The position numbers and the translations under genes are program-made. 28,895 bases of DNA from a virus. Of the stretch, positions 5,373-25,254 are shown in pieces. Each line of letters starts with the position of its first letter. Within the stretch, counting starts at the first letter, position 1. Location: the IMG/VR virus record IMGVR_UViG_3300031977_002709, positions 1 through 28,895 of that record; one strand, given 5' to 3'. A model generated the notes under the pieces. That model searched no databases. It was not told the origin of the DNA and was given only the letters and a program-made list of their open reading frames with translations.

Positions 5373-5941
5373 TGAAGTGGCTTAAACAAGTAGCAAAATA
5401 CCATGATGACTGGGTTTTAATAGCAAAAAAATTTGGTGCTGGTAGTTATGCTGAAGACATTGTACAAGAAGCCTATATAAAATTACACAAATACACCAAC
5501 CCTAACAAGCTATTTAAAAACGGTAAACTTAGCAAAGGTTATATGTTTTTTGTTTTGCGTAGTATATACCTTGACTACGTAATTAATAAAAATAAAATAC
5601 ATAAAATTAACATTGATGATTTTTACAAAGACGATGGCTTTAAAGAAATTACACAACAAAACTTACATAAGTTTACAGCTAACAATAACTTAGAACAAGA
5701 AATTGCATTTGGCAAACTTATAAATAAAATGGATAAAGAACTTACCAACTGGGATTGGTACAGTAAACGCATATTTGAAATTTACCGCGATACACCTTTA
5801 AGCATTAGGGGTATGGCCAAAGAAACTGGAATAAGTTTTGTAAATATATTTCATACATTAAAAAAAGGTAAACAATTAATGCGTGATAAATTCGCTGAAG
5901 ATTACCAGGATTATAAAAACCAAGATTACAATAAATTATGA
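5372..5941 (+). CDS. Phage RNA polymerase sigma factor, sigma-70-like
   Basis: A 189-residue protein begins with a sigma region-2-like segment (about 10-75): FGAGSYAEDIVQEAYIKLHK, then a basic stretch, GYMFFVLRSIYLDYV. The C-terminal part (about 125-180) includes SIRGMAKETGISFVNIFHTL, which reads as a region-4 helix-turn-helix. It probably redirects host RNA polymerase to phage promoters, such as those of the structural genes. It is diverged and short, similar to ECF-type factors. The start overlaps the ATPase stop. A DNA-binding regulator not acting as a sigma factor is the alternative. Confidence 0.72.
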   Translation: MKWLKQVAKYHDDWVLIAKKFGAGSYAEDIVQEAYIKLHKYTNPNKLFKNGKLSKGYMFFVLRSIYLDYVINKNKIHKINIDDFYKDDGFKEITQQNLHKFTANNNLEQEIAFGKLINKMDKELTNWDWYSKRIFEIYRDTPLSIRGMAKETGISFVNIFHTLKKGKQLMRDKFAEDYQDYKNQDYNKL

Positions 5942-6027
5942 AAAAATATGAAGACAAATTAAAAGCAACAGCCATAAGTTATATAGGCTTAATATTAACA
6001 CTAATAATAATATTTTTAATCAATTAA
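5938..6027 (+). CDS. Tiny membrane protein (29 aa)
   Basis: A 29-residue product has a charged start (MKKYEDKLKAT) and one membrane span (AISYIGLILTLIIIFLIN). It overlaps the sigma-factor stop by 4 nt and ends 1 nt before the next start, matching the packing of neighbouring genes. Function unknown; such single-span peptides are common in phage operons. Confidence 0.5.
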   Translation: MKKYEDKLKATAISYIGLILTLIIIFLIN

Positions 6028-6028
6028 A

Positions 6029-6439
6029 ATGAAACCACCAAAAGACAAACGCACAAAAGCATACAAAGATTGGAAACAAAACTTTGATGCACAAAGCCAA
6101 GGTTTAGGCGATACTGTTGAAAAAATAACAAAAGCAACAGGTATTAAAAAACTAGTTAAATGGGTTGCTGGGGAAGATTGCGGTTGTGATGCTAGAAAAC
6201 AAAAACTAAACACTTTATTTAAATACAATAAACCTTTATGCCTTGCAGAACATGAATACTATTATTTAAATACTTTTTTTAATAACCCAAAGGGTGTAAT
6301 TAGTTCACAAACGCAAGGCGAATTACTAAAAATATATAATAGAATATTTCAAACTAAAAAACAAAAATCATCATGCAGCAGTTGTGTACGTACTATGATA
6401 AGTGAGTTGCAAAAAATATACAAAACTTATGGAAATTAG
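6029..6439 (+). CDS. Conserved phage protein with two Cys clusters
   Basis: A 136-residue soluble protein carries GLGDTVEKITKATGIKKLVKW (26-46), then GEDCGCDARKQKLN with C51/C53, and near the C-terminus SSCSSCVRTM (C116 and C119). The two Cys pairs could together hold a zinc ion or an Fe-S cluster. I recall proteins with the GLGDxVxxxTxxTGIKxxV...DCGCxxRK layout widely in Bacteroidota phages, where their function is unknown. It sits between the sigma factor and the phosphoesterase and overlaps the latter. Confidence 0.7.
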   Translation: MKPPKDKRTKAYKDWKQNFDAQSQGLGDTVEKITKATGIKKLVKWVAGEDCGCDARKQKLNTLFKYNKPLCLAEHEYYYLNTFFNNPKGVISSQTQGELLKIYNRIFQTKKQKSSCSSCVRTMISELQKIYKTYGN

Positions 6440-7139
6440 ACCACGTTTAAAAGGCAACAAGCTAAAGGCTTTTAAAAACATTACAAGCAAAGCTAATAGA
6501 GTTTTAGTCATAGGCGATTTACACGAACCATTTTGCCTTGACCAATACCTTGACCACTGTACAGAAACCTATGCTAAATACAATTGCAACAAAGTAGTTT
6601 TTATTGGTGATGTAATAGACAACCACTACAGTAGTTACCATGAAACCGATACCGAAGCACTAGGCGGTGCTGATGAACTTGAACTAGCAATAAAGCGTAT
6701 AAGCCGTTGGTATAAGGCTTTTCCAAAAGCTATAGTTACAATTGGTAACCACGACCGTATAATAATGCGTAAAGCACAAACAAGCCAAGTACCTAAAAAA
6801 TGGATAAAAGCATACAAAGAAGTACTAGAAGTGCCTGGCTGGAAGTTTGTTGACCGCCATGTAATTGATGGTGTACAATACATACATGGTGAAGCCGGAA
6901 CGGCACGTACTAAATGCAAAGCAGACATGCAAAGTACAGTACAAGGCCATTTACATACACAATGTTATACAGAGTTTTTTGTAGGCCAAAACTTTAAAGT
7001 ATTTGGTATGCAAGTTGGTTGCGGTATTGACTTTGAAAGTTACGCAATGGCTTATGCAAAGCGTGGTAAAAAACCAGCAATAGCATGTGGCGTTGTTATA
7101 GATGGCCGTATTGCTATAAACGAGTTAATGAATTTATAA
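6429..7139 (+). CDS. Calcineurin-like metallophosphoesterase
   Basis: A 236-residue metallophosphoesterase with the full metal-binding set: GDLH (29-32), GDVID (60-64), GNHD (106-109), H153 and GHLH (173-176). The family hydrolyses phosphomono- or diesters (nucleotides, cyclic nucleotides, DNA ends) using two metal ions; the substrate here is unknown. I chose the ATG at 6429 (11-nt overlap, as elsewhere in the operon). An in-frame ATG at 6402 would add nine residues and overlap by 38 nt. It is the last gene before the second copy of the 18-bp motif. In this phage it could act on nucleotides or on host signalling molecules. Confidence 0.85.
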   Translation: MEIRPRLKGNKLKAFKNITSKANRVLVIGDLHEPFCLDQYLDHCTETYAKYNCNKVVFIGDVIDNHYSSYHETDTEALGGADELELAIKRISRWYKAFPKAIVTIGNHDRIIMRKAQTSQVPKKWIKAYKEVLEVPGWKFVDRHVIDGVQYIHGEAGTARTKCKADMQSTVQGHLHTQCYTEFFVGQNFKVFGMQVGCGIDFESYAMAYAKRGKKPAIACGVVIDGRIAINELMNL

Positions 7140-7140
7140 A

Positions 7141-7158
7141 TGTTAAAACATTGTTAAA
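7141..7158 (+). promoter_or_regulatory. 18-bp intergenic motif, copy 2 (TGTTAAAACATTGTTAAA)
   Basis: It matches the copies at 3102 and 13579 in 16 of 18 positions and begins 1 nt after the phosphoesterase stop, 38 nt before the next ATG. It is part of a palindrome, AATGTT-AA-AACATT (7139-7152). No good TAnnTTTG box follows, so an operator or a phage-sigma promoter is possible. Confidence 0.42.
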
Positions 7159-7195
7159 CATTATTTAATTAACAAAATGTTTATTATATTACAAT

Positions 7196-7351
7196 ATGAA
7201 AAAACCTAAAAAATACACACACCAACAACGCATGGCTAAAATGGAAAAAGTACTCACCAGTTTATATGTAGCTGTAATGTCAATGCGTACACGAATAGAT
7301 AAAATAGAAGACATATTAAACATTAAAAAAGATGAAGAACAAAAAGCATAA
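7196..7351 (+). CDS. Small basic protein (51 aa)
   Basis: A 51-residue product has a Lys-rich start (MKKPKKYTHQQRMAKMEK) followed by an amphipathic helix containing RTRIDKIEDILNI. It has no recognised motif. It is the first gene after the second motif copy and overlaps the next gene by 20 nt. Function unknown. Confidence 0.5.
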   Translation: MKKPKKYTHQQRMAKMEKVLTSLYVAVMSMRTRIDKIEDILNIKKDEEQKA

Positions 7352-7583
7352 ATTTACCACTGAATACATACTTTACCAAACTACTTTGTTTATTACAGGT
7401 ACTTATGAAGAAGCCGAGCCTGGCGACCATTTCCACCCAGGTTTTCCAGCGCAATTAAATATTGAAAAAATATATTTAAACGACCACCCAGAAGCAGAAG
7501 TCAGTAACATTATTAGCGACATAGATTACGAACAAATAGAAGAAGATTTATACGCTGATTTATTAGACGGTACTTTATGCTAG
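7332..7583 (+). CDS. Conserved small acidic phage protein (83 aa)
   Basis: An 83-residue acidic protein has an N-terminal beta-like segment, then EAEPGDHFHPGFPAQLNIEKIYLN, then an Asp/Glu-rich tail with IDYEQIEEDLYADLLDG. The arrangement (polar strand, EPGD, Pro-containing loop, a beta strand with an I-x-x-I-x-L pattern, and an acidic helix) recalls short phage proteins of unknown function. It overlaps the exonuclease start by 7 nt. No catalytic residues can be named. Confidence 0.6.
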   Translation: MKNKKHKFTTEYILYQTTLFITGTYEEAEPGDHFHPGFPAQLNIEKIYLNDHPEAEVSNIISDIDYEQIEEDLYADLLDGTLC

Positions 7584-8272
7584 TTCTTTTTGATGCAGAC
7601 AGTTTATTGTGGTCAAGTTGTATAAACGTAAACGATGACTTAATAGAAGCACAAGGCAAGTTTGATGAAGTATTTATGTCTATTGTAAACTACATAGATG
7701 AAACCTGGCCAGTTGAACAAGTTTTAGTATTTGCTGGGTCAAGAGGCAATTACCGTAAAAAAATAGATAACACTTATAAATTAAACCGCAAAAAAAAACA
7801 ATTACCAAAACAACTACCAAACCTACAAGAATATTTAAACCAACAGTGGCAATGTAAAAATGCATGCGGTATGGAAACCGATGACTTAATTAGTATTTAT
7901 TGGCATAAGTTAGCAAAACAATATGGGCGTGATAATCTTATTATTGTTAGCCTTGATAAAGATTACAAACAACTACCAGCATTAATATACAACTACCATT
8001 ACAAGCATAAAGAAATATATGACATAACACCACAACAAGCCTTAAACAATTTTTATACACAAATGATAGTAGGCGATAGTGCTGACAATGTTAACTTTTG
8101 TAAAGGCTACGGTAAAAAGTATGCACAAAAAATATTTGCAAATTGTACTACTAAATACCAATATATAAAACAAACTTTTATGTTATATAAAAAAATATAC
8201 AAACAAAAAGCGCGTGAAAAATACATACAATGCCACAAACTTTTAAAACTATTAAACAATGAAACTATTTGA
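7577..8272 (+). CDS. 5'-3' exonuclease, FEN1/T7 gp6-like PIN-fold nuclease
   Basis: A 231-residue nuclease with the acidic metal-binding positions of the 5'-3' exonuclease family: FDADS (D6, D8), METDDLIS (E100, D102, D103), SLDKDYKQLP (D127, D129) and GDSADNV (D167, D170). The basic RKKIDNTYKLNRKKK segment (60-74) would lie near the DNA arch. The helix-hairpin-helix region is short and weak (CKGYGKKYAQKIF). It should degrade RNA primers, flaps or host DNA from 5' ends. It opens the operon segment that contains the predicted DNA-modification genes. Confidence 0.85.
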   Translation: MLVLFDADSLLWSSCINVNDDLIEAQGKFDEVFMSIVNYIDETWPVEQVLVFAGSRGNYRKKIDNTYKLNRKKKQLPKQLPNLQEYLNQQWQCKNACGMETDDLISIYWHKLAKQYGRDNLIIVSLDKDYKQLPALIYNYHYKHKEIYDITPQQALNNFYTQMIVGDSADNVNFCKGYGKKYAQKIFANCTTKYQYIKQTFMLYKKIYKQKAREKYIQCHKLLKLLNNETI

Positions 8273-8477
8273 AGACAATTGGGGTACTGACAACAGCCCT
8301 ATAGAAGACGTAGAAATAACTACAACACTTTTATATTTTAGCAAACAAGAACTAAAACAATTTAAACATTTATGTAAAATAGGTATGAAAAAAGTTTACG
8401 GTGAAGCTGCGCAAACAAAAGGCAACCTAAGCGATTATTTACTACTAATACTAAAACAAGCAAATGAAAACAATTAA
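8259..8477 (+). CDS. Small conserved phage protein (72 aa)
   Basis: A 72-residue product has an acidic start and a helical C-terminal half, YFSKQELKQFKHLCKIGMKK followed by GNLSDYLLLILKQ. The pattern of one charged helix, a short link and a second Leu-rich helix is reminiscent of small DNA-binding or dimerisation domains, but no family can be named. It overlaps the exonuclease by 14 nt and the TET/JBP-like gene by 14 nt. Confidence 0.55.
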   Translation: MKLFEDNWGTDNSPIEDVEITTTLLYFSKQELKQFKHLCKIGMKKVYGEAAQTKGNLSDYLLLILKQANENN

Positions 8478-9330
8478 ACTAGCAAACCATTACAAAGGCA
8501 AACAAGCTGATAAATTTAAAGGCACGTTTTTAACTGACAAACATTATAACACACTTATAACAGAAGATACTGACGGTTACGATTTAAACGGTCAACTATT
8601 ATTTAGATACCGTAAAAATGCAATACCTGACAATATACTAAAGCTAGGTTACAACAGTTTTAAAGACAGCATAGAATATACTGATGGGCGTGGCATAGCT
8701 AGTGGTAGCAGTCATAAACGCATACGTAAAGATGGTAGTGTAAGTAACATTACTGTTGGCAATAAAGTTTATAGCGGTAACGTAGGTTATATGGATAGTA
8801 GTGCAATGGTAAAGTATTGCCGTAAAACTGCATTTGCACGTAAGTATTTTGATAAGTTTAAACAGGGTATTCCGTTTGTTGAATACATTGATTACCTATA
8901 TAGTAATTTATGCCCAACACATTACCAAAAACAAAAAGCAATTGCAGACGGAACAAACCGTAATTATGTTATTGGTGATACAAGTTTTACAACTGTAACA
9001 GTAAATAAAAACTTTCGTACAGCTGTACATAAAGATAGCGGTGACTTCCCTGAGGGGTTTGGCAATTTGGTTACTTATCGCCAGGGGTCTTACGATGGGG
9101 GTTACTTTTGTTTACCTGAATACAAAGTAGCTATAGACATGCAAAACAATGATGTACTATTTGTTGATGTACACAAATGGCATGGTAATACTGAAATAAC
9201 AAACAAAAGCGATGATTGGTTGCGTATAAGTTTTGTTTTATACTACAGGGAATACATGTATAAATGCAACCAGCCTAGCCAAGAGCTACAAAACATAAAA
9301 CAAGATAAAACAGGGTATTTAACATTATGA
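8464..9330 (+). CDS. TET/JBP-family 2-oxoglutarate/Fe(II) DNA base dioxygenase
   Basis: A 288-residue protein whose C-terminal half (about 170-262) has the double-stranded beta-helix dioxygenase pattern. It contains FRTAVHKDSGD with the iron ligands H189-x-D191, then GFGNLVTYRQG, GGYFCLPEY, and NNDVLFVDVHKWHGNT with H240 as distal ligand (H237 nearby). The RISFVLYYR strand supplies R254 for 2-oxoglutarate. This order and spacing match TET/JBP enzymes, which hydroxylate the methyl group of thymine or 5-methylcytosine in DNA. The N-terminal half (1-165) is unassigned. The following nuclease, glycosylase-like and kinase genes support a role in DNA hypermodification. I see no cytosine methyltransferase here, so thymine is the likelier substrate. 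Confidence 0.75.
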   Translation: MKTIKLANHYKGKQADKFKGTFLTDKHYNTLITEDTDGYDLNGQLLFRYRKNAIPDNILKLGYNSFKDSIEYTDGRGIASGSSHKRIRKDGSVSNITVGNKVYSGNVGYMDSSAMVKYCRKTAFARKYFDKFKQGIPFVEYIDYLYSNLCPTHYQKQKAIADGTNRNYVIGDTSFTTVTVNKNFRTAVHKDSGDFPEGFGNLVTYRQGSYDGGYFCLPEYKVAIDMQNNDVLFVDVHKWHGNTEITNKSDDWLRISFVLYYREYMYKCNQPSQELQNIKQDKTGYLTL

Positions 9331-9800
9331 TTACAAAACAACAAAAGGGTTTACAATTTGAAGCCTATGTTTACCAGAACCTAAAAAAATACTGGGGCAT
9401 TACTTTAACGCATTGTAAAACAAAACAAGAACAATACACCATAGGTGAAAACTACGAGGGTTGGGAAATAAAAAACGACCAAACGTTTAAAAAAACTGGC
9501 AACCTTTACATTAGTGTTGAACGTCGCTATGAACATGCTACATACCCTAGTGGTATATTTAAAGACCAAAAAGTAAAACAACGCTTTTATGTAATTGGTG
9601 ACCACAACAAATGTTATGTATTTAGCACAAAATTACTACAACAGTATTATTATAAAAACAAACCAAAGTTAAAGCCAGGCTTTACTACTAAAAACCAAGG
9701 AACTGAATACGGTTTTTTATTAAACACACAACAAGCTGAGCGTTTAACATTAGGTTATTTATGTAACGAAATTAATTTATTTTGCAAACAACAGGATTAG
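9327..9800 (+). CDS. PD-(D/E)XK-type nuclease-like protein
   Basis: A 157-residue protein has GLQFEAYVYQNL (8-19, with E12), an acidic strand, YEGWEIKND (E47-I-K49), then NLYISVERRY (59-68). E12, the ExK pair and the following strand fit the restriction-endonuclease-like fold. C-terminal to this come PSGIF and a FYVIGDHNKCYVFS strand pair. It could cut DNA that lacks, or carries, the modification made by its neighbours, or process DNA ends. That is inference. It overlaps the dioxygenase stop by 4 nt and the next gene by 19 nt. Confidence 0.6.
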   Translation: MITKQQKGLQFEAYVYQNLKKYWGITLTHCKTKQEQYTIGENYEGWEIKNDQTFKKTGNLYISVERRYEHATYPSGIFKDQKVKQRFYVIGDHNKCYVFSTKLLQQYYYKNKPKLKPGFTTKNQGTEYGFLLNTQQAERLTLGYLCNEINLFCKQQD

Positions 9801-10873
9801 TACAAGTACAACCTATTTACAATTTACAACCAGGTTTAGATTTTAGGTTACCACAATACAGGCGCAAAGTATTTTTGGACTTTTACAAATTCCATACTAA
9901 ATACAGAGGCCATGCCGGTGCGGTGTATTATGCAATACCACATATAATTGATGAACTTAAATTAAATAAAGAACAAGCCTACTGGTTATGTTTTATAAAC
10001 GGTTGCAGCCAAAACATAGTAACTAGTTATATAATATTTAAAAAGTTTAACAATATACACAAACTGAATTTATATAAATTAAAAGAATGGTTTTACCAAA
10101 ACTATAAACTATTTGGTTGGGATACCGACAGACGTTATTTTAAAAACTCTTTTATACAATGCATAGAAAATTACTTAAACCTTTTAAATGGTAAAACACA
10201 AACCGAGTTCTTTAGCAATATATGCAACACAAGCAATGCGCATACAAATTTTAAAAAACTATGGCAAGTAGTTAATAATGACTTTTTATACTTTGGGCGT
10301 TTAAGTGCTTTTAGTTATATTGAATACCTAAACATTATAGGTTTAAACGTAGAATGCAATGAATTATTTTTAGATGATTTAAAAGGTAGTAAAAGCCACC
10401 GTAATGGTTTATGTAAGGTTTTAGGCAGAGATGACTTAGATTGGACTAAAAACAACCCTGTAGCTTACACAGATAACATTATTGATGAATTAAAAACGCA
10501 AGGCCAATTACTATTGCAAGAAGCCAAACAATACATTAACATGCCTTTTGTAAATTACTTTACGCTTGAAACTACCTTATGTTGTTACAAGGGTTGGCAT
10601 AGAGTAAACAGACGTTACCCTAATGTTTACAACGATATGTTTTACGACCGCATAACACATGCAGAACAAAAATGGCAAACTAAATTTAATATATTTCATG
10701 CAGCGCGTAAAAAATATTTACCTGAATACTTGCGTTGCGAACATAATCCTAGTAAATTAAAACTTTGTAAAGAAAAACAAAACCACTACCGTTTAACTGG
10801 CCAAGTAATAATGATGGAACACGAATACCCATACTATAAAAATAACTTTAGAACAAATACACTATGGCAATAA
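9782..10873 (+). CDS. aGPT-Pplase/ADDT-like protein, predicted thymine hypermodification enzyme
   Basis: A 363-residue, mostly helical protein. Conserved-looking blocks are YRGHAGAVYYAIPHI (41-55), FGRLSAFSYIEYL (171-183), SKSHRNGLCKVLGRDDLDW (203-221) and TLETTLCCYKGWHRVNRRYP (261-280), followed by YNDMFYDRI. These resemble my memory of the alpha-glutamyl/putrescinyl-thymine pyrophosphorylase family (aGPT-Pplase; DNA-glycosylase-like). Members of that family attach amines or amino acids to a pyrophosphorylated or phosphorylated 5-hydroxymethyl-uracil in phage DNA. The kinase immediately downstream, overlapping by 10 nt, and the TET/JBP gene upstream strengthen the case. The family assignment is from pattern memory and could be wrong. 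Confidence 0.5.
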   Translation: MQTTGLVQVQPIYNLQPGLDFRLPQYRRKVFLDFYKFHTKYRGHAGAVYYAIPHIIDELKLNKEQAYWLCFINGCSQNIVTSYIIFKKFNNIHKLNLYKLKEWFYQNYKLFGWDTDRRYFKNSFIQCIENYLNLLNGKTQTEFFSNICNTSNAHTNFKKLWQVVNNDFLYFGRLSAFSYIEYLNIIGLNVECNELFLDDLKGSKSHRNGLCKVLGRDDLDWTKNNPVAYTDNIIDELKTQGQLLLQEAKQYINMPFVNYFTLETTLCCYKGWHRVNRRYPNVYNDMFYDRITHAEQKWQTKFNIFHAARKKYLPEYLRCEHNPSKLKLCKEKQNHYRLTGQVIMMEHEYPYYKNNFRTNTLWQ

Positions 10874-11415
10874 ATATATTAATAACTGGTAATTGTGGCG
10901 TTGGTAAAACCTATGTAATAAAAAAACTTATAAATAGTTTACAAGTTGCTCATGCAAACAATGTAGGTTTGTTACGTTATTTACATAATGACCAATATAT
11001 AATTACAGGTACTTACGTAGGTGATATGTTTGATGGCAGCGATAAACTTGCCATGAATGTAATGTCTAGCTTAGATGAATTCTTACAAAAAAACAATAAC
11101 CACATAATATTTTACGAGGGTGACCGCTTTACTAACAGTACATTTATAAAAAAAGCAAAACCATTTATAATTAAAATACTTGGCGATGGTAAACAAGGGC
11201 GCAAGCAACGCAACAGCCAACAAACACAACGCCATTTAAAAAGCATACAAACAAGAGTAAACAATATAAACGCAGATTTAGAATTAAAAAACAGCAATGT
11301 TTGTTTAAGTGTTATATTGCATTGTTTAATGCATAGTAGTACACACCAAGAACTACAAATGCAATTAGGCAAGCAACAACAAATACACACTAAACAACAA
11401 ACTAGCTTATTTTAA
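10864..11415 (+). CDS. P-loop kinase, predicted 5-hydroxymethylpyrimidine DNA kinase
   Basis: A 183-residue P-loop protein with a perfect Walker A, GNCGVGKT (9-16), a second acidic motif HIIFYEGDRFTN (80-91) and an Arg-rich lid GRKQRNSQQTQRHLKSIQTR (112-131). The GDxFxGSDKLAM segment (53-64) may contact substrate. The size and lid fit a small-molecule or nucleic-acid kinase rather than an ATPase. In thymidine-hypermodifying phages a kinase phosphorylates 5-hydroxymethyl-dU in DNA to make the acceptor for aGPT-Pplase-type enzymes, and such an enzyme lies just upstream here. The specific substrate is inferred from that context. The Gln-rich C-terminal tail looks disordered. Confidence 0.65.
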   Translation: MAINILITGNCGVGKTYVIKKLINSLQVAHANNVGLLRYLHNDQYIITGTYVGDMFDGSDKLAMNVMSSLDEFLQKNNNHIIFYEGDRFTNSTFIKKAKPFIIKILGDGKQGRKQRNSQQTQRHLKSIQTRVNNINADLELKNSNVCLSVILHCLMHSSTHQELQMQLGKQQQIHTKQQTSLF

Positions 11416-19710: not shown

Positions 19711-19862
19711 TAATTTTTAAATTTTTAAATATTGATAATTTTTATGGTAAACATAACACTATAGAAATAGCAAAAGGTAAGTACAAATTACCTGAAACTT
19801 TAAAAGAAGGATTTCAACAAATTAAACGCAAATACAAATGGCAACAGAGCAAGCAAATATAA
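19707..19862 (+). CDS. Small protein ahead of tape measure (51 aa)
   Basis: A 51-residue product, MIIFKFLNIDNFYGKHNTIEI, then a Lys-rich helix (FQQIKRKYKWQQSKQI). It overlaps the baseplate stop by 4 nt and the tape measure start by 25 nt. The overlap pattern supports coding. Nothing similar is recognised. Given its location it might assist tape measure or baseplate assembly. Confidence 0.5.
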   Translation: MIIFKFLNIDNFYGKHNTIEIAKGKYKLPETLKEGFQQIKRKYKWQQSKQI

Positions 19863-21766
19863 AAGTTAATGTTAACTTACAACAAGCAATAAAGGACTTT
19901 GAACTTTTAGACAAAAGAGTTGAAGAAACTGTTGATTCTATTAATAAGCTAGAAGCTGAAATAATACAACTTGAAAAAGAACAAAAAGAACTAGGTCCAA
20001 AGCAATTAGGCCGCCAACGCGACTACCAACAAGCTATTGATAAAACTAAACAACGTTTAAAAGAAGAAAAACAAGATTTAAAACAATTAAACACAGAGCG
20101 TAAAAAGGCTGACAAACAAGTTAAGGAATTAAAAAAGTCACAAGGTGATTTAAACGAAGCAACCAGTATTGCTGACCGCGCAACTGGCGGTTTAATTAGC
20201 AGTTTTAAAAGCATGAAGCTAGCTATTGGTGGCTCTATAAAATCATTAGGTAAATTTAAAGTGGCTTTAATTGCTACAGGTATTGGTGCTTTTGTAGTAT
20301 TATTAGGTAGTTTACAACAAGCATTTACTAGATCAGAAGAAGGCCAAAACAAATTCATTAAGTTAATGTCACAAATAGGCAATGTGGTTAACAACACGTT
20401 AGATATATTTGCTGACTTTGGTATGTCTGTTATAAATGCTGGTAAAGCGTTATTTAAACTAGCTAAGGGTGACTTAGGGGGTGCTGCAAGGGCTTTTGGT
20501 GAAGCCAAAAACAATATAAATGATGCAACCGATGCTATAGTTAATTTTACAGATACAATTAAAAAAGAGGGTGCAATAGTTGATGACATAGCAAACAAAC
20601 GCGCTAAAGCTGACAAAGTAGACAGGCAATTAATATTAGATAGAGCTGAAGCAAACAGAAAATTCAATGAATTACGTGAAAAAGCAGCTGATAAAGAAAA
20701 CATTAGCATTGAAGAACGTATTACAGCCTTAAAAGAAGCCGGTAAAATTGAAGAAGAAATAACTAAAAAAGAAATTGAAGCTGCAAAACTTAGATTTGAA
20801 GCCAAAAAAGCTGAAAATGAACTAGGTAAAAGCACAAAAGAAGATCTAGATGAACAAGCTAGGCTACAAGCAGCCGTTACTGACTTAGAAACTAAACGTT
20901 TACGTAGGCAAAAACTTTTAACAGCAGAAATTACCACTGCCTTACGTGAAGAAAAAGCAGAACGTAAAGCTGCATCTGCTCAATTAGCATCTGAGTATGT
21001 ATTTTTGCCAGGCGTTGGTTTTGTTACTAAAGAGCAATTTGATAAAATAAAAGCAAATGGTGAAGCCATACAAACAACTTTAGATGACTTCAAAAAAAGA
21101 AAAGAAGATGAAGAAGCTGAAACCGAGTTACAAAAACTACAACTTGAGGAGCAACGCACACTAGCAGAACTTGATAGGCTTAATGCTACTGAAGAGCAAA
21201 AAATGCAGATTAAAAAGTTCTACAGTGATAAATATTTAGAGTTAGAAACCAATAATAAAAAGAAAGAGGAAAATGTAGATAAAATGGTGGCTCAAGCTAA
21301 AATAGCTCAAGCTGGCCAGGTATTTGCTTTAGTAGGGCAAATAGCTAAAAAAGGTAGCAAGGTAGGTAAAATAGCTGCAATAGGCCAAACAGTTATTAGC
21401 GGAATACAGTCAGTACAGAATGCATATACAACAGCGCAATCATCTCCAATAACAGCAGTGAACCCTGGTTATCCTTTACAACAAGCAATTATTGCTGGGG
21501 CATTTAGTGCTGCACAATTAGCTAAAATAATAGCAACAAACCCAGAATCACCAGCTGCGGCCGGAGGTTTACGCCCTACAGGTGGTGGTGCAGAACCAGC
21601 AGTGCCACAATTTAATGTAGTTGGTGCAACTGCTACAAGCCAATTAGCTACAGCTATTGGTGAACAAGAACAACAACCTGTACAAGCATATGTGGTTAGC
21701 CAAGATGTTACAACAGCACAAAGCCTAGAAAACAACATAATTACAGGTGCAACTTTAGGCGGATAA
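19838..21766 (+). CDS. Tape measure protein
   Basis: A 642-residue protein with long coiled-coil regions: about 18-105 (Lys/Glu/Gln-rich heptads) and about 245-490. Between them is a membrane-active hydrophobic segment at 141-160 (KVALIATGIGAFVVLLGSLQ). The C-terminal part is Ala/Gly-rich (AAAGGLRPTGGGAEPA) and more ordered. This is the classic tape measure layout: it sets tail length and helps DNA cross the envelope. At about 0.15 nm per residue the tail would be roughly 95-100 nm, a rule of thumb only. It lies after the chaperone, terminator and neck genes as expected. Confidence 0.88.
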   Translation: MATEQANIKVNVNLQQAIKDFELLDKRVEETVDSINKLEAEIIQLEKEQKELGPKQLGRQRDYQQAIDKTKQRLKEEKQDLKQLNTERKKADKQVKELKKSQGDLNEATSIADRATGGLISSFKSMKLAIGGSIKSLGKFKVALIATGIGAFVVLLGSLQQAFTRSEEGQNKFIKLMSQIGNVVNNTLDIFADFGMSVINAGKALFKLAKGDLGGAARAFGEAKNNINDATDAIVNFTDTIKKEGAIVDDIANKRAKADKVDRQLILDRAEANRKFNELREKAADKENISIEERITALKEAGKIEEEITKKEIEAAKLRFEAKKAENELGKSTKEDLDEQARLQAAVTDLETKRLRRQKLLTAEITTALREEKAERKAASAQLASEYVFLPGVGFVTKEQFDKIKANGEAIQTTLDDFKKRKEDEEAETELQKLQLEEQRTLAELDRLNATEEQKMQIKKFYSDKYLELETNNKKKEENVDKMVAQAKIAQAGQVFALVGQIAKKGSKVGKIAAIGQTVISGIQSVQNAYTTAQSSPITAVNPGYPLQQAIIAGAFSAAQLAKIIATNPESPAAAGGLRPTGGGAEPAVPQFNVVGATATSQLATAIGEQEQQPVQAYVVSQDVTTAQSLENNIITGATLGG

Positions 21767-21809
21767 TTATAACAAAGTAAAATTAACAATGTTTTTAAAA
21801 AAATGAGCA

Positions 21810-22406
21810 ATGAACATAATAGAACTAGTAATCAACGAGGACGAGGAGCTGAGCGGTGTGGATGCGATCAGTGTAGTAGAACAACCTGCGATAGAGGAGG
21901 ACTTTGTTGCCTTAAAAAACCAGCAACAGGAAATCAAACTTGCAGAAGTATCTGCAGAGAAACGAATACTGATGGGGGCTGCACTTGTTCCAGAGAAACC
22001 CATATATAGAAGCAACGGTGAAGAAGAATTTTATATTTTCTTCAGCAAAGATACAGTAGTTAAAGCTAGCCAAATGTTTTTAAAACGTGGCAACCAAAGT
22101 AAAGCAACCCTAGAGCATGCAGAAGCCATAGGCGGTATGACTGTAGTTGAATCTTGGTTAGTTGAAGACGATGTACACGATAAAAGCCGTAAATACGGTT
22201 TAAACGTACCTGTTGGTACTTGGATGGTTAGCATGAAAGTAGACAACGATGAAGTATGGAACGACTACGTAAAAACAGGCAAAGTTAAAGGTTTTAGCAT
22301 AGAGGGCTATTTTGCAGACAAATTACAACGCCCACAAGATAAACAAAAAGACCAATTAAGCGAAGAAGAACTTCTTATAAAAAAATTAATAGATGCCTTA
22401 CAATAA
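21810..22406 (+). CDS. Prohead protease, XkdF-like (peptidase S78 group 2)
   Basis: A 198-residue protein. An N-terminal segment has VDAISVVEQPAIEEDFVALK. Then come LMGAALVPEKPIYR (54-67), ATLEHAEAIGG with H103, TVVESWLVEDDVHDKSRKYG and VPVGTWMVSMKVD. VKGFSIEGYF contains the likely nucleophile S163. These match the XkdF-like putative serine protease family that processes scaffold and capsid. It sits just upstream of scaffold and capsid. The 43-nt gap before it (21767-21809) holds no obvious signal. Start at 21810 gives the expected N-terminus. Confidence 0.85.
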   Translation: MNIIELVINEDEELSGVDAISVVEQPAIEEDFVALKNQQQEIKLAEVSAEKRILMGAALVPEKPIYRSNGEEEFYIFFSKDTVVKASQMFLKRGNQSKATLEHAEAIGGMTVVESWLVEDDVHDKSRKYGLNVPVGTWMVSMKVDNDEVWNDYVKTGKVKGFSIEGYFADKLQRPQDKQKDQLSEEELLIKKLIDALQ

Positions 22407-23283: not shown

Positions 23284-24210
23284 ATGGCAACAACAGTAAA
23301 CATTACATCAACTTATGCTGGGGAATTTAGTCAGAAGTACATTTCTGCGGCATTATTATCGTCATCAACTATTGCTGACGGAGGAGTTGAAGTTATGCCA
23401 AACGTAAAATTTAAAGAAGTAATTCAACGTGTTGAAACTGGTTCTTTAATTGCGGATGGTTCATGTGACTTCGACGCTAGTTCTTCGGTAACTTTAAGCG
23501 AAGTAATTTTGCAACCAGAAGAATTTCAGGTAAACTTACAATTATGTAAATCAGACTTTATTAACACGTGGGATGCTATCCAGATGGGATATAGCGCATT
23601 TGACCAACTTCCTACTTCTTTTGCGGACTATTTAATTGCTCACGTAGCAGCTAAAGTAGCAGCTCAAAACGAAATTAACATCTGGCAGGGTGCTACAGCT
23701 ACAGCTGGTCAATATAATGGTTTTGAAGCATTAGCAGCAGCAGGTGGTTCAGGAGTAGTACCAGTAACAGGAACAACTTTAACTTCAGGTAACATTTTAG
23801 CTGAAATGCAAAAGGTTGTAGATGCTATTCCTAACTCTTTATATGGTAAAGAAGATTTAAAACTTTATATTAGCCCTAAAGCAGCTAAATTATATGTACA
23901 AGTTCTTGGCGGTTTCGCAGCTACTATCGGTGCAAACGGTGTAGATAACAAAGGAACAATGTGGTATAACAACGGTTCTTTAAGCTATAATGGAGTTCCA
24001 ATTTTTGTAGCAAGAGGATTAACTGCAGACCACATGTTTGCAGCAGAATCTAGCAACTTATTCTTTGGTACTGGTCTCATGAATGACTGGAACGAGGTAC
24101 GTGTAATTGACATGGCTGACATTGACGGATCAAAAAACGTTAGAATCGTTATGAGGTTTACAGCTGGATGTGCAATTGGCGTTGGTGCTGACGTAGTATA
24201 TTATTCATAA
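23284..24210 (+). CDS. Major capsid protein, HK97 fold
   Basis: A 308-residue protein with the N-terminal region ITSTYAGEFSQKYISAALLS, an E-loop-type segment (50-90), and FADYLIAHVAAKVAAQNEINIWQG (spine-helix-like). The C-terminal half contains LYISPKAAKLYVQ and GVPIFVARGLTADHMFAAESSNL, ending in a beta-rich tail. Length, location after protease and scaffold, and codon use favouring abundant codons (AAC, GGT, TTC) indicate the main shell protein. A 24-nt leader with TAATTTTTAACA before the ATG (23284) resembles strong Bacteroidota translation leaders. A terminator follows at 24227. Confidence 0.85.
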   Translation: MATTVNITSTYAGEFSQKYISAALLSSSTIADGGVEVMPNVKFKEVIQRVETGSLIADGSCDFDASSSVTLSEVILQPEEFQVNLQLCKSDFINTWDAIQMGYSAFDQLPTSFADYLIAHVAAKVAAQNEINIWQGATATAGQYNGFEALAAAGGSGVVPVTGTTLTSGNILAEMQKVVDAIPNSLYGKEDLKLYISPKAAKLYVQVLGGFAATIGANGVDNKGTMWYNNGSLSYNGVPIFVARGLTADHMFAAESSNLFFGTGLMNDWNEVRVIDMADIDGSKNVRIVMRFTAGCAIGVGADVVYYS

Positions 24211-24226
24211 ATATTAACCTATATAT

Positions 24227-24250
24227 GGGGCATTAATTTGCCCCTTATAT
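24227..24250 (+). terminator. Terminator after major capsid gene
   Basis: GGGGCA (24227-24232) pairs with TGCCCC (24239-24244) around TTAATT, followed by TTATATT. It starts 17 nt after the capsid stop and could make capsid transcripts end early, raising capsid over downstream genes. Confidence 0.7.
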
Positions 24251-24266
24251 TAAAAAACTTTAAATT

Positions 24267-24815
24267 ATGTCTTGTGATATTTCTTTAGGTAGATTAGAAC
24301 CATGTAAAGATTCCGTTGGAGGAATTAGAGCAATTTATTTTATAAACTACACAAATGGTTTATTAGATACTGCTACTTTTGACTCAGACGAAATTATTAC
24401 AGGTTTTGCTTCTGCTTTAACATTGTACAAATATGATTTAAAAGGTGCTAATTCGTTTGATGAAACAAATGAAAACTCTAGAGAAAATGGAACTAGCTTT
24501 TTTACACAAACAGGAACAATTGTTCTTAAAAAGCAAGATGCAACTACTAGAAAGCAAATGAAACTACTTAGCTGGGGTAGACCCCAAGTTGTGGTTGAAT
24601 TTTATAACTACGGTGCTAGCGACGAAACTAGATACGTTTTAGCGGGAATAGAAAACGGTTGTGAGGTAGCTCCTTCTACGGCTTCAGGAGCTGCAATGGG
24701 AGATTTAAATGGGTATAACATTACCTTTACTGGAACTGAAAAAGAACCAGCTTTCTTTATTGACCCTACAATTATTAACGATACAACAAACACAACTGTT
24801 GTTAGCGGTACGTAA
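24267..24815 (+). CDS. Major tail tube protein-like
   Basis: A 182-residue beta-rich protein: MSCDISLGRLEPCKDSVGGI, then RAIYFINYTNGLLD. The central YKYDLKGANSFDETNENSRENG is followed by TSFFTQTGTIVLKKQD. Then come LLSWGRPQVVVEFYN and GAAMGDLNGYNITFTGTEKE. The LGRLxPCKDxVGGIxAIYFxNY start and AMGDLxGYxxTFTGxE end are those of Bacteroidota phage major tail proteins as I recall them. It is placed right after capsid. It ends before a strong terminator. Confidence 0.7.
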   Translation: MSCDISLGRLEPCKDSVGGIRAIYFINYTNGLLDTATFDSDEIITGFASALTLYKYDLKGANSFDETNENSRENGTSFFTQTGTIVLKKQDATTRKQMKLLSWGRPQVVVEFYNYGASDETRYVLAGIENGCEVAPSTASGAAMGDLNGYNITFTGTEKEPAFFIDPTIINDTTNTTVVSGT

Positions 24816-24837
24816 TAACTTTTTAATTTCATATTAT

Positions 24838-24869
24838 AAAGCCACTTTTTTTAAGGTGGCTTTTTTTTT
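24838..24869 (+). terminator. Strong terminator after tail tube gene
   Basis: AAAGCCAC (24838-24845) pairs with GTGGCTTT (24856-24863) around a ten-base loop, followed by a T run to 24869. The flanking A and T runs make it potentially bidirectional. Confidence 0.82.
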
Positions 24870-24874
24870 ACATA

Positions 24875-24892
24875 ACATTTAACAATAAATGT
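24875..24892. repeat. Perfect inverted repeat ACATTTA-ACAA-TAAATGT
   Basis: A seven-base perfect inverted repeat with a 4-nt spacer lies right after the terminator and 27 nt before the ATG at 24919. It could be an operator or part of a promoter for the portal operon. The opposite strand contains TTGTTAAATGT, loosely like the 18-bp motif. Confidence 0.4.
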
Positions 24893-24918
24893 ATTTTTAT
24901 GTTTTATAAAAAACAACA

Positions 24919-25254
24919 ATGATAATATTAACAACTAGCAGTTCTGCGCAAGAAATTAAATTTATTCCACGTGAATACGCAGCTACTAGTATTGTAATAC
25001 ACAACGAAGACACCAATACAAGCACAACTTATACTGGTTTAACATTTACAACTGAAGCATACTATTTAAAAACAGATGTTACATTTAACCCAGTGCTTAA
25101 AGAGGGTACTTTTTATAACATAAGTGTATTAAACAACAGTGATGTTATTTATAAAGATAACATATTCTGTACAGACCAAAACATTTCGGTTTACAGTATA
25201 AACAACAATGAATATACTGAGCATGAAACCACAAACGAATACATTGTATTATGA
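24919..25254 (+). CDS. Small beta-rich structural protein (111 aa)
   Basis: A 111-residue protein is nearly all alternating Thr/Ile/Val/Tyr strands (AATSIVIHNEDTNTSTTYTG, then FYNISVLNNSDVIYKD), suggesting an Ig-like or beta-sandwich domain. It is the first gene after a terminator and inverted repeat. It overlaps the portal start by 4 nt. It may be a head decoration or neck protein, or a fibre subunit; there is no specific family match. Confidence 0.62.
   Translation: MIILTTSSSAQEIKFIPREYAATSIVIHNEDTNTSTTYTGLTFTTEAYYLKTDVTFNPVLKEGTFYNISVLNNSDVIYKDNIFCTDQNISVYSINNNEYTEHETTNEYIVL

Follow-up and report, generated by a model that had tools for sequence, protein, structure and literature searches.

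A predicted TET-initiated thymidine hypermodification cassette in a marine phage related to Nonlabens phage P12024L

We found that a marine phage related to the Nonlabens (Flavobacteriia) phage P12024L probably carries a three-enzyme cassette for post-replicative thymidine hypermodification. The window analyzed (28,895 nucleotides) is the entire IMG/VR record IMGVR_UViG_3300031977_002709 and is a linear fragment; the features of interest are collected in Table 1. In the proposed pathway, a TET/JBP enzyme would hydroxylate the methyl group of thymine in phage DNA to give 5-hydroxymethyl-dU (5-hmdU). A P-loop kinase would then phosphorylate the hydroxymethyl group to give 5-phosphomethyl-dU (5-PmdU), and a protein of the aGPT-Pplase2/ADDT family would replace the phosphate by an amino acid (glycine or another) or a polyamine, attached through its amine. 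The modified base may shield the phage genome from host nucleases.

Table 1. Genes of the predicted hypermodification cassette, in window coordinates
Position	Strand	Length (aa)	Feature	Basis
8464..9330	+	288	TET/JBP-type 2OG-Fe(II) dioxygenase, predicted thymine to 5-hydroxymethyluracil in DNA	PF12851
9327..9800	+	157	Protein with PD-(D/E)XK-like GWEIKND motif	Weak phrog_13596 match
9782..10873	+	363	aGPT-Pplase2/amino acid:DNA transferase family, TTG start	Homology and fold
10864..11415	+	183	P-loop kinase, predicted 5-hmdU DNA kinase	HMM, profile, model

The kinase ORF overlaps the transferase ORF upstream of it, and the gene order of the cassette is repeated in tens of contigs. All three cassette proteins are under purifying selection, with dN/dS values of 0.02 to 0.23. 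The dioxygenase matches PF12851 (Tet_JBP) at an E value of 2e-28 (99 bits; curated cut-off, 34.9), and the cassette contains a match to phrog_3271 at 5e-76. These matches, together with the repeated gene order and the dN/dS values, indicate that the cassette is not a chance arrangement. A search of NCBIfam gave no informative name. An earlier note, made from the sequence alone, had placed the ORFs of the dioxygenase, the helical protein, and the P-loop protein, and all of its coordinates are correct.

That note had read the first protein as a 2OG/Fe(II) dioxygenase with H189-x-D191, H240, and R254. Consistently with this, and in addition to the Tet_JBP match, we found no variation across 25 homologues at H189, D191, H240, or R254, which form the HxD...H iron triad and the 2OG-binding arginine. 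A profile of the window TET family matches human TET2 (E, 6e-7), and gp26 of P12024L is 79% identical to the window TET. A phmmer search of the PDB with the TET gave no useful match. The TET also weakly matches PHROG 6059, which is labeled queuine tRNA-ribosyltransferase. We predict that the window TET acts on thymine in phage DNA.

In the kinase, GNCGVGKT occupies residues 9 to 16, and G9, G14, K15, D60, E85-G86-D87-R88, R113, and R116 are invariant across 30 kinases. Its structural model (pLDDT, 89) has a uridine-cytidine/guanylate kinase fold (Z, 11). The relevant kinase group comprises PF18748 (HMUDK_HMUD1) and PF18751 (Ploopntkinase3), and PF18751 itself scores the window kinase at 11.8 bits, under its curated cut-off of 27. 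An HMM built from three PF18751-family kinases matched it at 1.8e-6, and profile comparison (hhalign) with the ViI/M6 5-hmdU kinases gave a probability of 95% and an E value of 2.5e-8. The homology reaches past the P-loop, through G-x-Y ... G-x-D and then EG. A first iterated profile drew in clamp-loader ATPases and was discarded, and the family claim therefore uses only the three-sequence HMM and hhalign. With the kinase as query, tblastn found no match in a phage collection and phmmer no useful one in the PDB. The proposal of a P-loop kinase of the 5-hmdU type is sustained by the HMM and the profile match; its predicted reaction is the phosphorylation of 5-hmdU in DNA.

A Pfam search with the 363-aa protein alone returned no family at E values up to 1. 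Direct hhalign comparison with a two-sequence ADDT profile (M6 and CloverMinnie) was weak (probability, 2%; E, 0.024), and comparison with an HMUDK_hel pair was weaker (E, 0.13). Because the direct comparison is weak, ADDT membership rests on intermediates and fold. The window transferase-family HMM matches ViI Vi01_199 (aGPT-Pplase2) at 5e-51, and Vi01_199 matches PF18724 (ADDT) at 3e-58. Two members of the window transferase family (L066 and L067) match ADDT at 6e-15 and 8e-24. The 363-aa protein is also homologous to Ackermannviridae proteins, and Zemanar gp3 is 39% identical to it. Searches of the PDB by phmmer with the transferase and by profile with its family gave nothing useful; the transferase was settled by fold search. 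We found that the best PDB match of its model (pLDDT, 91) is 8z2m/8z2n, the 5-phosphomethyl-dU glycinyltransferase PUGT, with a Z score of 16.6 over 252 aligned residues (rmsd, 3.5 to 3.6); the next protein has a Z score of 9.6. Residues W68, G172, E263, C267, Y279, and R309 also occur in M6 gp51, a full-length homologue of PUGT. The second-best fold match of the model is a queuine salvage enzyme. The HMM and structure checks thus place the 363-aa protein with ADDT/aGPT-Pplase2, in agreement with the likeness suggested earlier. It is predicted to swap the phosphate of 5-PmdU for an amino acid or amine in DNA.

We counted TET and ThyA (a thymidylate synthase homologue) in the 29 relatives with enough flank. 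TET was present without ThyA in 26 and ThyA without TET in 3; none had both and none had neither. In 27 of the 29, a kinase is encoded close to the transferase. Transferase-kinase fusion ORFs with TET next to them, seen in four relatives (named below), also fit the proposed cassette. This strict alternation argues for a TET entry route rather than a nucleotide-level hydroxymethylase and supports the view that TET would substitute for nucleotide-level hydroxymethylation. Among the window ORFs scanned, we found no ThyA and no match to PF18723 (aGPT-Pplase1), and no PLP, radical SAM, or acetyltransferase tailoring enzyme was found in the window. The ORF scans also agree with the earlier statement that the window has no cytosine methyltransferase, deoxypyrimidine hydroxymethylase, or glycosyltransferase. 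A search of 37 related records for PF00145 C5-methyltransferases found none, whereas it matched 10 of 14 control genomes; the window and most of the other records are fragments, but the set includes the deposited genomes of P12024L, CloverMinnie, Zemanar, and HTVC112P. ThyA and C5-methyltransferase are likewise absent from a 33.3-kb relative with 95% DNA identity to the window in two blocks, one of about 13.4 kb and the other of about 14 kb. The earlier note had given the product as 5-hydroxymethyl-U (or -C). We infer that thymine is the favored base, since C5-methyltransferase is absent from the 37 records and the closest solved relative of the transferase is 5-PmdU specific.

The same cassette could instead modify cytosine, with 5mC made by the host or by an unseen enzyme, oxidized by TET to 5hmC, and then acted on by the kinase and transferase. 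As far as the account of Burke et al. (2021) in PMC12730594 goes, the characterized phage TETs oxidize 5mC and come from phages with a C5-methyltransferase of their own, and TAGT glycosyltransferases modify cytosine derivatives in T6-like phages (PMC13390438). The lack of PF00145 in the 37 records and the 5-PmdU specificity of the structural match argue against a cytosine target, as do the ThyA-bearing transferase homologues, which sit in thymidine pathways; we consider it unlikely. Rather less probable is that the 363-aa protein is a DNA-binding helical partner of the kinase, like HMUDK_hel, and that the pathway ends at 5-phosphomethyl-dU or a pyrophosphate. Four relatives (L033, L049, L054, and L075) have transferase-kinase fusion ORFs with TET adjoining, two others (L019 and L020) have TET and kinase without a 363-aa-type protein between them, and the Pfam name of the aGPT-Pplase1 relative is "5-hmdU DNA kinase, helical domain," all of which would fit such a partner. 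Homology to the ADDT/aGPT-Pplase2 clade and a glycinyltransferase as the best fold match point instead to a transferase, and the HMUDK_hel comparison was the weaker of two weak ones. It is very improbable that the target of the cassette is not phage DNA but RNA, free nucleotides, or host DNA, or that 5-hmdU is placed at only a few regulatory sites. The PHROG 6059 and queuine salvage matches that would favor such a reading are generic, whereas sequenced phages link all three families to the modification of DNA bases (PMC11955845) and the transferase model fits a DNA-acting enzyme much more strongly. Taken together, the gene identities, the TET/ThyA alternation, and the absence of C5-methyltransferase suggest that the likely pathway runs from T through 5-hmdU and 5-PmdU to an aminoacyl-type thymidine.

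The 157-aa gene between the dioxygenase and the helical protein was overlooked in the earlier note. Its match to phrog_13596 is weak (E, 2e-4), and its PD-(D/E)XK-like motif suggests that it may encode a nuclease. An N6_N4_Mtase identity for ORF 9327-9797 was rejected (E, 0.054, below the cut-off). In metagenomic members of the phage clade, this gene is constant between TET and an exchangeable slot, beside either decorator.

We found that, among phages whose DNA is 92% identical and whose TETs are practically the same, this slot is filled either by the transferase and kinase or by a glycosyltransferase of the TAGT family. The transferase and kinase are exchanged jointly, as a block. P12024L and the IMG/VR TET-TAGT relatives have the phage backbone of the window and an orthologous TET (70 to 84% identical), and the metagenomic ones share its 157-aa gene; in contrast to the window, their slot holds a PF20691 glycosyltransferase. 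Near-identical TETs beside glycosyltransferases in sister phages suggest that the hydroxylated base is a shared intermediate. We put at about even the chance that one flavophage-group TET makes 5-hmU and that the cap is an exchangeable module, swapped by recombination in one slot: transferase plus kinase would give an aminoacyl-type T, and the TAGT glycosyltransferase would give a glycosyl-hmU like eukaryotic base J. We found no earlier description of this cassette swap in the literature.

Such TET-initiated systems were reportedly predicted by Iyer et al. in 2013 (NAR). Rhodococcus phage Tonitrus has a five-gene thymidine hypermodification system that includes TET, transferase, and kinase genes (PMC11955845). 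In Tonitrus, Gordonia phage CloverMinnie (gp1-5), and Mycobacterium phage Zemanar (gp1-4), TET-like, aGPT-Pplase2/ADDT, and 5-hmU/P-loop kinase genes are adjacent in the order seen in the window. These phages have actinobacterial hosts and a ParB-like gene first, and Tonitrus and CloverMinnie have an additional fifth gene, whereas the window lacks both genes and has the 157-aa gene after TET. The Zemanar and CloverMinnie TETs are only 26 to 27% identical to the window TET over the aligned part. In Pseudomonas phage M6/PaMx11 and Salmonella phage ViI, according to Lee et al. (2018, 2022) as relayed in PMC6449724 and PMC9476957, a DNA kinase and aGPT-Pplase2/ADDT act after replication. Both enzymes are homologous to those of the window. 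In these phages, 5-hmdU is made at the nucleotide level by a thymidylate synthase homologue, in place of which the window has TET. These phages also have aGPT-Pplase1 and a PLP enzyme, M6 has a radical-SAM enzyme as well (in the account in PMC9476957), and ViI encodes a pair of 5-hmdU kinases besides its second aGPT-Pplase. The window lacks these extra enzymes, and this absence weighs against the proposed pathway. Thus, the "different entry route" claimed earlier holds relative to ViI and M6 but is not new, given Tonitrus (PMC11955845), Zemanar, and CloverMinnie. In kinetoplastids, too, TET/JBP converts T to 5-hmU and the hydroxyl is then capped, yielding base J (PMC12730594). The base J cap is glucose, whereas for the window we predict an amino acid or amine, added via a phosphate.

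With this cassette, TET-initiated thymidine hypermodification would reach beyond actinophages into marine phages related to a Flavobacteriia-host isolate, in a compact three-enzyme form that should be easily reconstituted. A swap behind a nearly constant TET indicates that oxidation and decoration evolve independently of each other, and the matched phage groups are available for asking which host defenses each cap defeats. If the exchangeable-cap model is true, bacterial viruses would use chemistry resembling that of base J and would have a natural way of mixing and matching caps to evade host nucleases.

We found that the cassette's open reading frames and motifs, as claimed by the earlier note, agree with a re-check of the sequence, and that its dioxygenase is indeed of the TET/JBP type (Tet_JBP match, 2e-28). 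The 363-aa helical protein had no Pfam match; it belongs to PHROG 3271 (5e-76). A tblastn search gave matches in 376 phage records, and the protein shares 39% identity with gp3 of Mycobacterium phage Zemanar. An HMM of its family matched ViI Vi01_199 at 5e-51. Vi01_199 is PF18724, "Amino acid:DNA transferase" (3e-58), and, judging from its gene position, it corresponds to the aGPT-Pplase2 of ViI in PMC10458263. Two members of the window protein's own family, loci L066 and L067, match PF18724 directly. The best fold match of the AlphaFold model (pLDDT 91) was 8z2m/8z2n (Z 16.6; 252 residues, rmsd 3.5-3.6), crystal structures of PUGT, the 5-phosphomethyl-dU (5-PmdU) glycinyltransferase of Pseudomonas phage PaMx11. 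Helical models can score a high Z by chance, but this match lies 7 Z units over the next and is consistent with the homology evidence; queuine salvage enzymes (Z 9.6) and DNA glycosylases (Z 8.7 and below) ranked lower. M6 gp51 is homologous to PUGT along its full length (E 1e-90), and W68, G172, E263, C267, Y279 and R309 of the window transferase are common to the whole compared set, M6 gp51 included.

The P-loop protein alone gave only generic NTPase matches. Using the PF18751 kinases of Zemanar, CloverMinnie and Montesquieu, we built an HMM that found the window protein at 1.8e-6; against 3,206 ORFs, nearly all its matches adjoined a transferase or TET gene. Profile comparison with the ViI and M6 5-hmdU DNA kinases (PF18748) gave a probability of 95% (E 2.5e-8), in an alignment extending past the P-loop through a G-x-Y...G-x-D stretch and an EG motif. 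The predicted structure of the kinase shows the uridine-cytidine/guanylate kinase fold (Z ~11). The public label of the M6 and ViI kinases is a misannotation (see table), as is "SNF2 DNA repair protein" for several phage TETs.

We searched for the transferase blind to neighboring genes and obtained 63 loci (62 plus the window), 29 of them with at least 2 kb upstream and at least 1.5 kb downstream. Among these 29, a kinase was close to the transferase in 27, TET occurred without a ThyA homologue in 26 and a ThyA homologue without TET in 3; none had both or neither. We give no p-value for this alternation because the loci are phylogenetically non-independent. In one ThyA locus (L061), the gene is cut by the contig end and was recognized by a local HMM but missed by the PF00303 search. 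The transferase and kinase form a single ORF in L033, L049, L054 and L075, with TET starting at or just before its end. The reference phages fit this pattern: M6 and ViI have ThyA, with no TET match within the parts scanned; Montesquieu has ThyA but lacks TET; and TET without ThyA is seen in Zemanar and CloverMinnie. The last two carry the same core as the window, some of it under the labels oxidoreductase, adenylate kinase and hypothetical protein. Thus, this kind of cassette is already known, and the window adds another example. Between the window and its relatives, dN/dS was 0.02-0.09 for TET, 0.09-0.11 for the transferase and 0.07-0.23 for the kinase, so all three genes are maintained.

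PF00145 C5-methyltransferases were found in 0 of 37 records, including the deposited P12024L, CloverMinnie, Zemanar and HTVC112P genomes; the same search matched 10 of 14 control genomes. As fragments make up the window and many of its relatives, absence calls are based mainly on the genomes deposited for isolates, together with the 33-kb contig. Given the lack of C5-methyltransferase matches and the 5-PmdU substrate of PUGT, the transferase's closest solved relative, we favor thymine as the target base, but PMC12730594, citing Burke et al. 2021, ascribes activity on 5mC to the phage TETs characterized so far. Since PUGT uses a monophosphate, one kinase would in principle suffice; since a pyrophosphoryl intermediate is documented in phage phiW-14 (PMC5977210), a diphosphate is also possible. 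We infer the side chain, reaction order and role of the modification.

Several loci vary this arrangement. In the fragments L019 and L020, the pathway would either stop at 5-phosphomethyl-dU or draw on a transferase encoded elsewhere. L059 and L078 possibly represent a two-acceptor version, and the product in Pelagibacter phage HTVC112P is possibly an O-methylated hydroxymethyl base. The ThyA-type cassette of L061 has more genes than the TET versions.

Coordinates of cassette genes, variants and other features
Record	Positions	Strand	Feature
Window	8464-9330	+	TET
Window	9327-9800	+	157-aa gene, PD-(D/E)XK-like motif
Window	9782-10873	+	Transferase
Window	10864-11415	+	Kinase
Window	20023-20937	minus	304-aa open frame, antisense to 642-aa gene
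Window	19838-21766		642-aa gene
G003	23791-24927		378-aa counterpart of 304-aa frame
M6 (L089)	21686-22249		5-hmdU DNA kinase, labeled terminase small subunit
ViI (L090)	38203-38865		5-hmdU DNA kinase, labeled terminase small subunit
L019	10001-11427		TET directly overlapping kinase; no transferase between or beside
L020	5035-6461		As L019
L059	469-4490		TET, two transferase-like genes (divergent 346-aa and 381-aa), kinase
L078	7645-11666		As L059
HTVC112P (L087)	5375-7597		ParB-like gene, TET, annotated FkbM-family methyltransferase in decorator position
L061	9959-14749		Transferase, 350-aa PLP-enzyme-like ORF (by eye), kinase, truncated ThyA homologue

The window, a complete IMG/VR record (28,895 bases) and a linear phage fragment, has as its closest isolate Nonlabens (Persicivirga) phage P12024L (35.65 kb), on the basis of TET (79% identity), a metallophosphoesterase and numerous shorter matches to its proteins spread over the window. 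Metagenomic contig G003 (also L005; 33.3 kb) is 95% identical to the window in DNA over two blocks of ~13.4 and ~14 kb, with the cassette within; its extra DNA includes ~4.1 kb with three ORFs of ~390-410 aa. Parts of its two ends (139 and 143 bp) resemble each other in register, a hint, though no proof, that the contig is nearly complete. The 304-aa antisense frame is probably a codon-bias shadow.

In the flavophage clade, we found a recurrent order of exonuclease, 72-aa ORF, TET and 157-aa gene, followed by varying genes. The 157-aa gene adjoins TET whichever decorator is present in the metagenomic clade members read, and its product could be a nuclease sparing modified DNA. The slot holds transferase and kinase in the window, L003-L006, L008, L010 and L013, and a TAGT-family glycosyltransferase in L011, L012, L014-L016, L018 and L021 (only L011 was tested for PF20691; by sequence, the rest are close or clear look-alikes). 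P12024L has a TAGT-family glycosyltransferase immediately after TET. L009 carries a divergent TAGT (PF20691, E 5e-8) and is 92.1% identical to L008 over 3.67 kb, reaching 12 bases into the exchanged gene; the TETs of these two loci hardly differ (100% identity after rounding). The L011 and L010 TETs are 94% identical, and similarity between these loci breaks off close to where the 157-aa gene ends, resuming directly after the exchanged block. A literature search reaching few primary papers of the field found no description of the swap or of transferase-kinase fusions. The simplest reading of these sequences is that TET supplies both blocks with one and the same substrate, a hydroxymethylated base.
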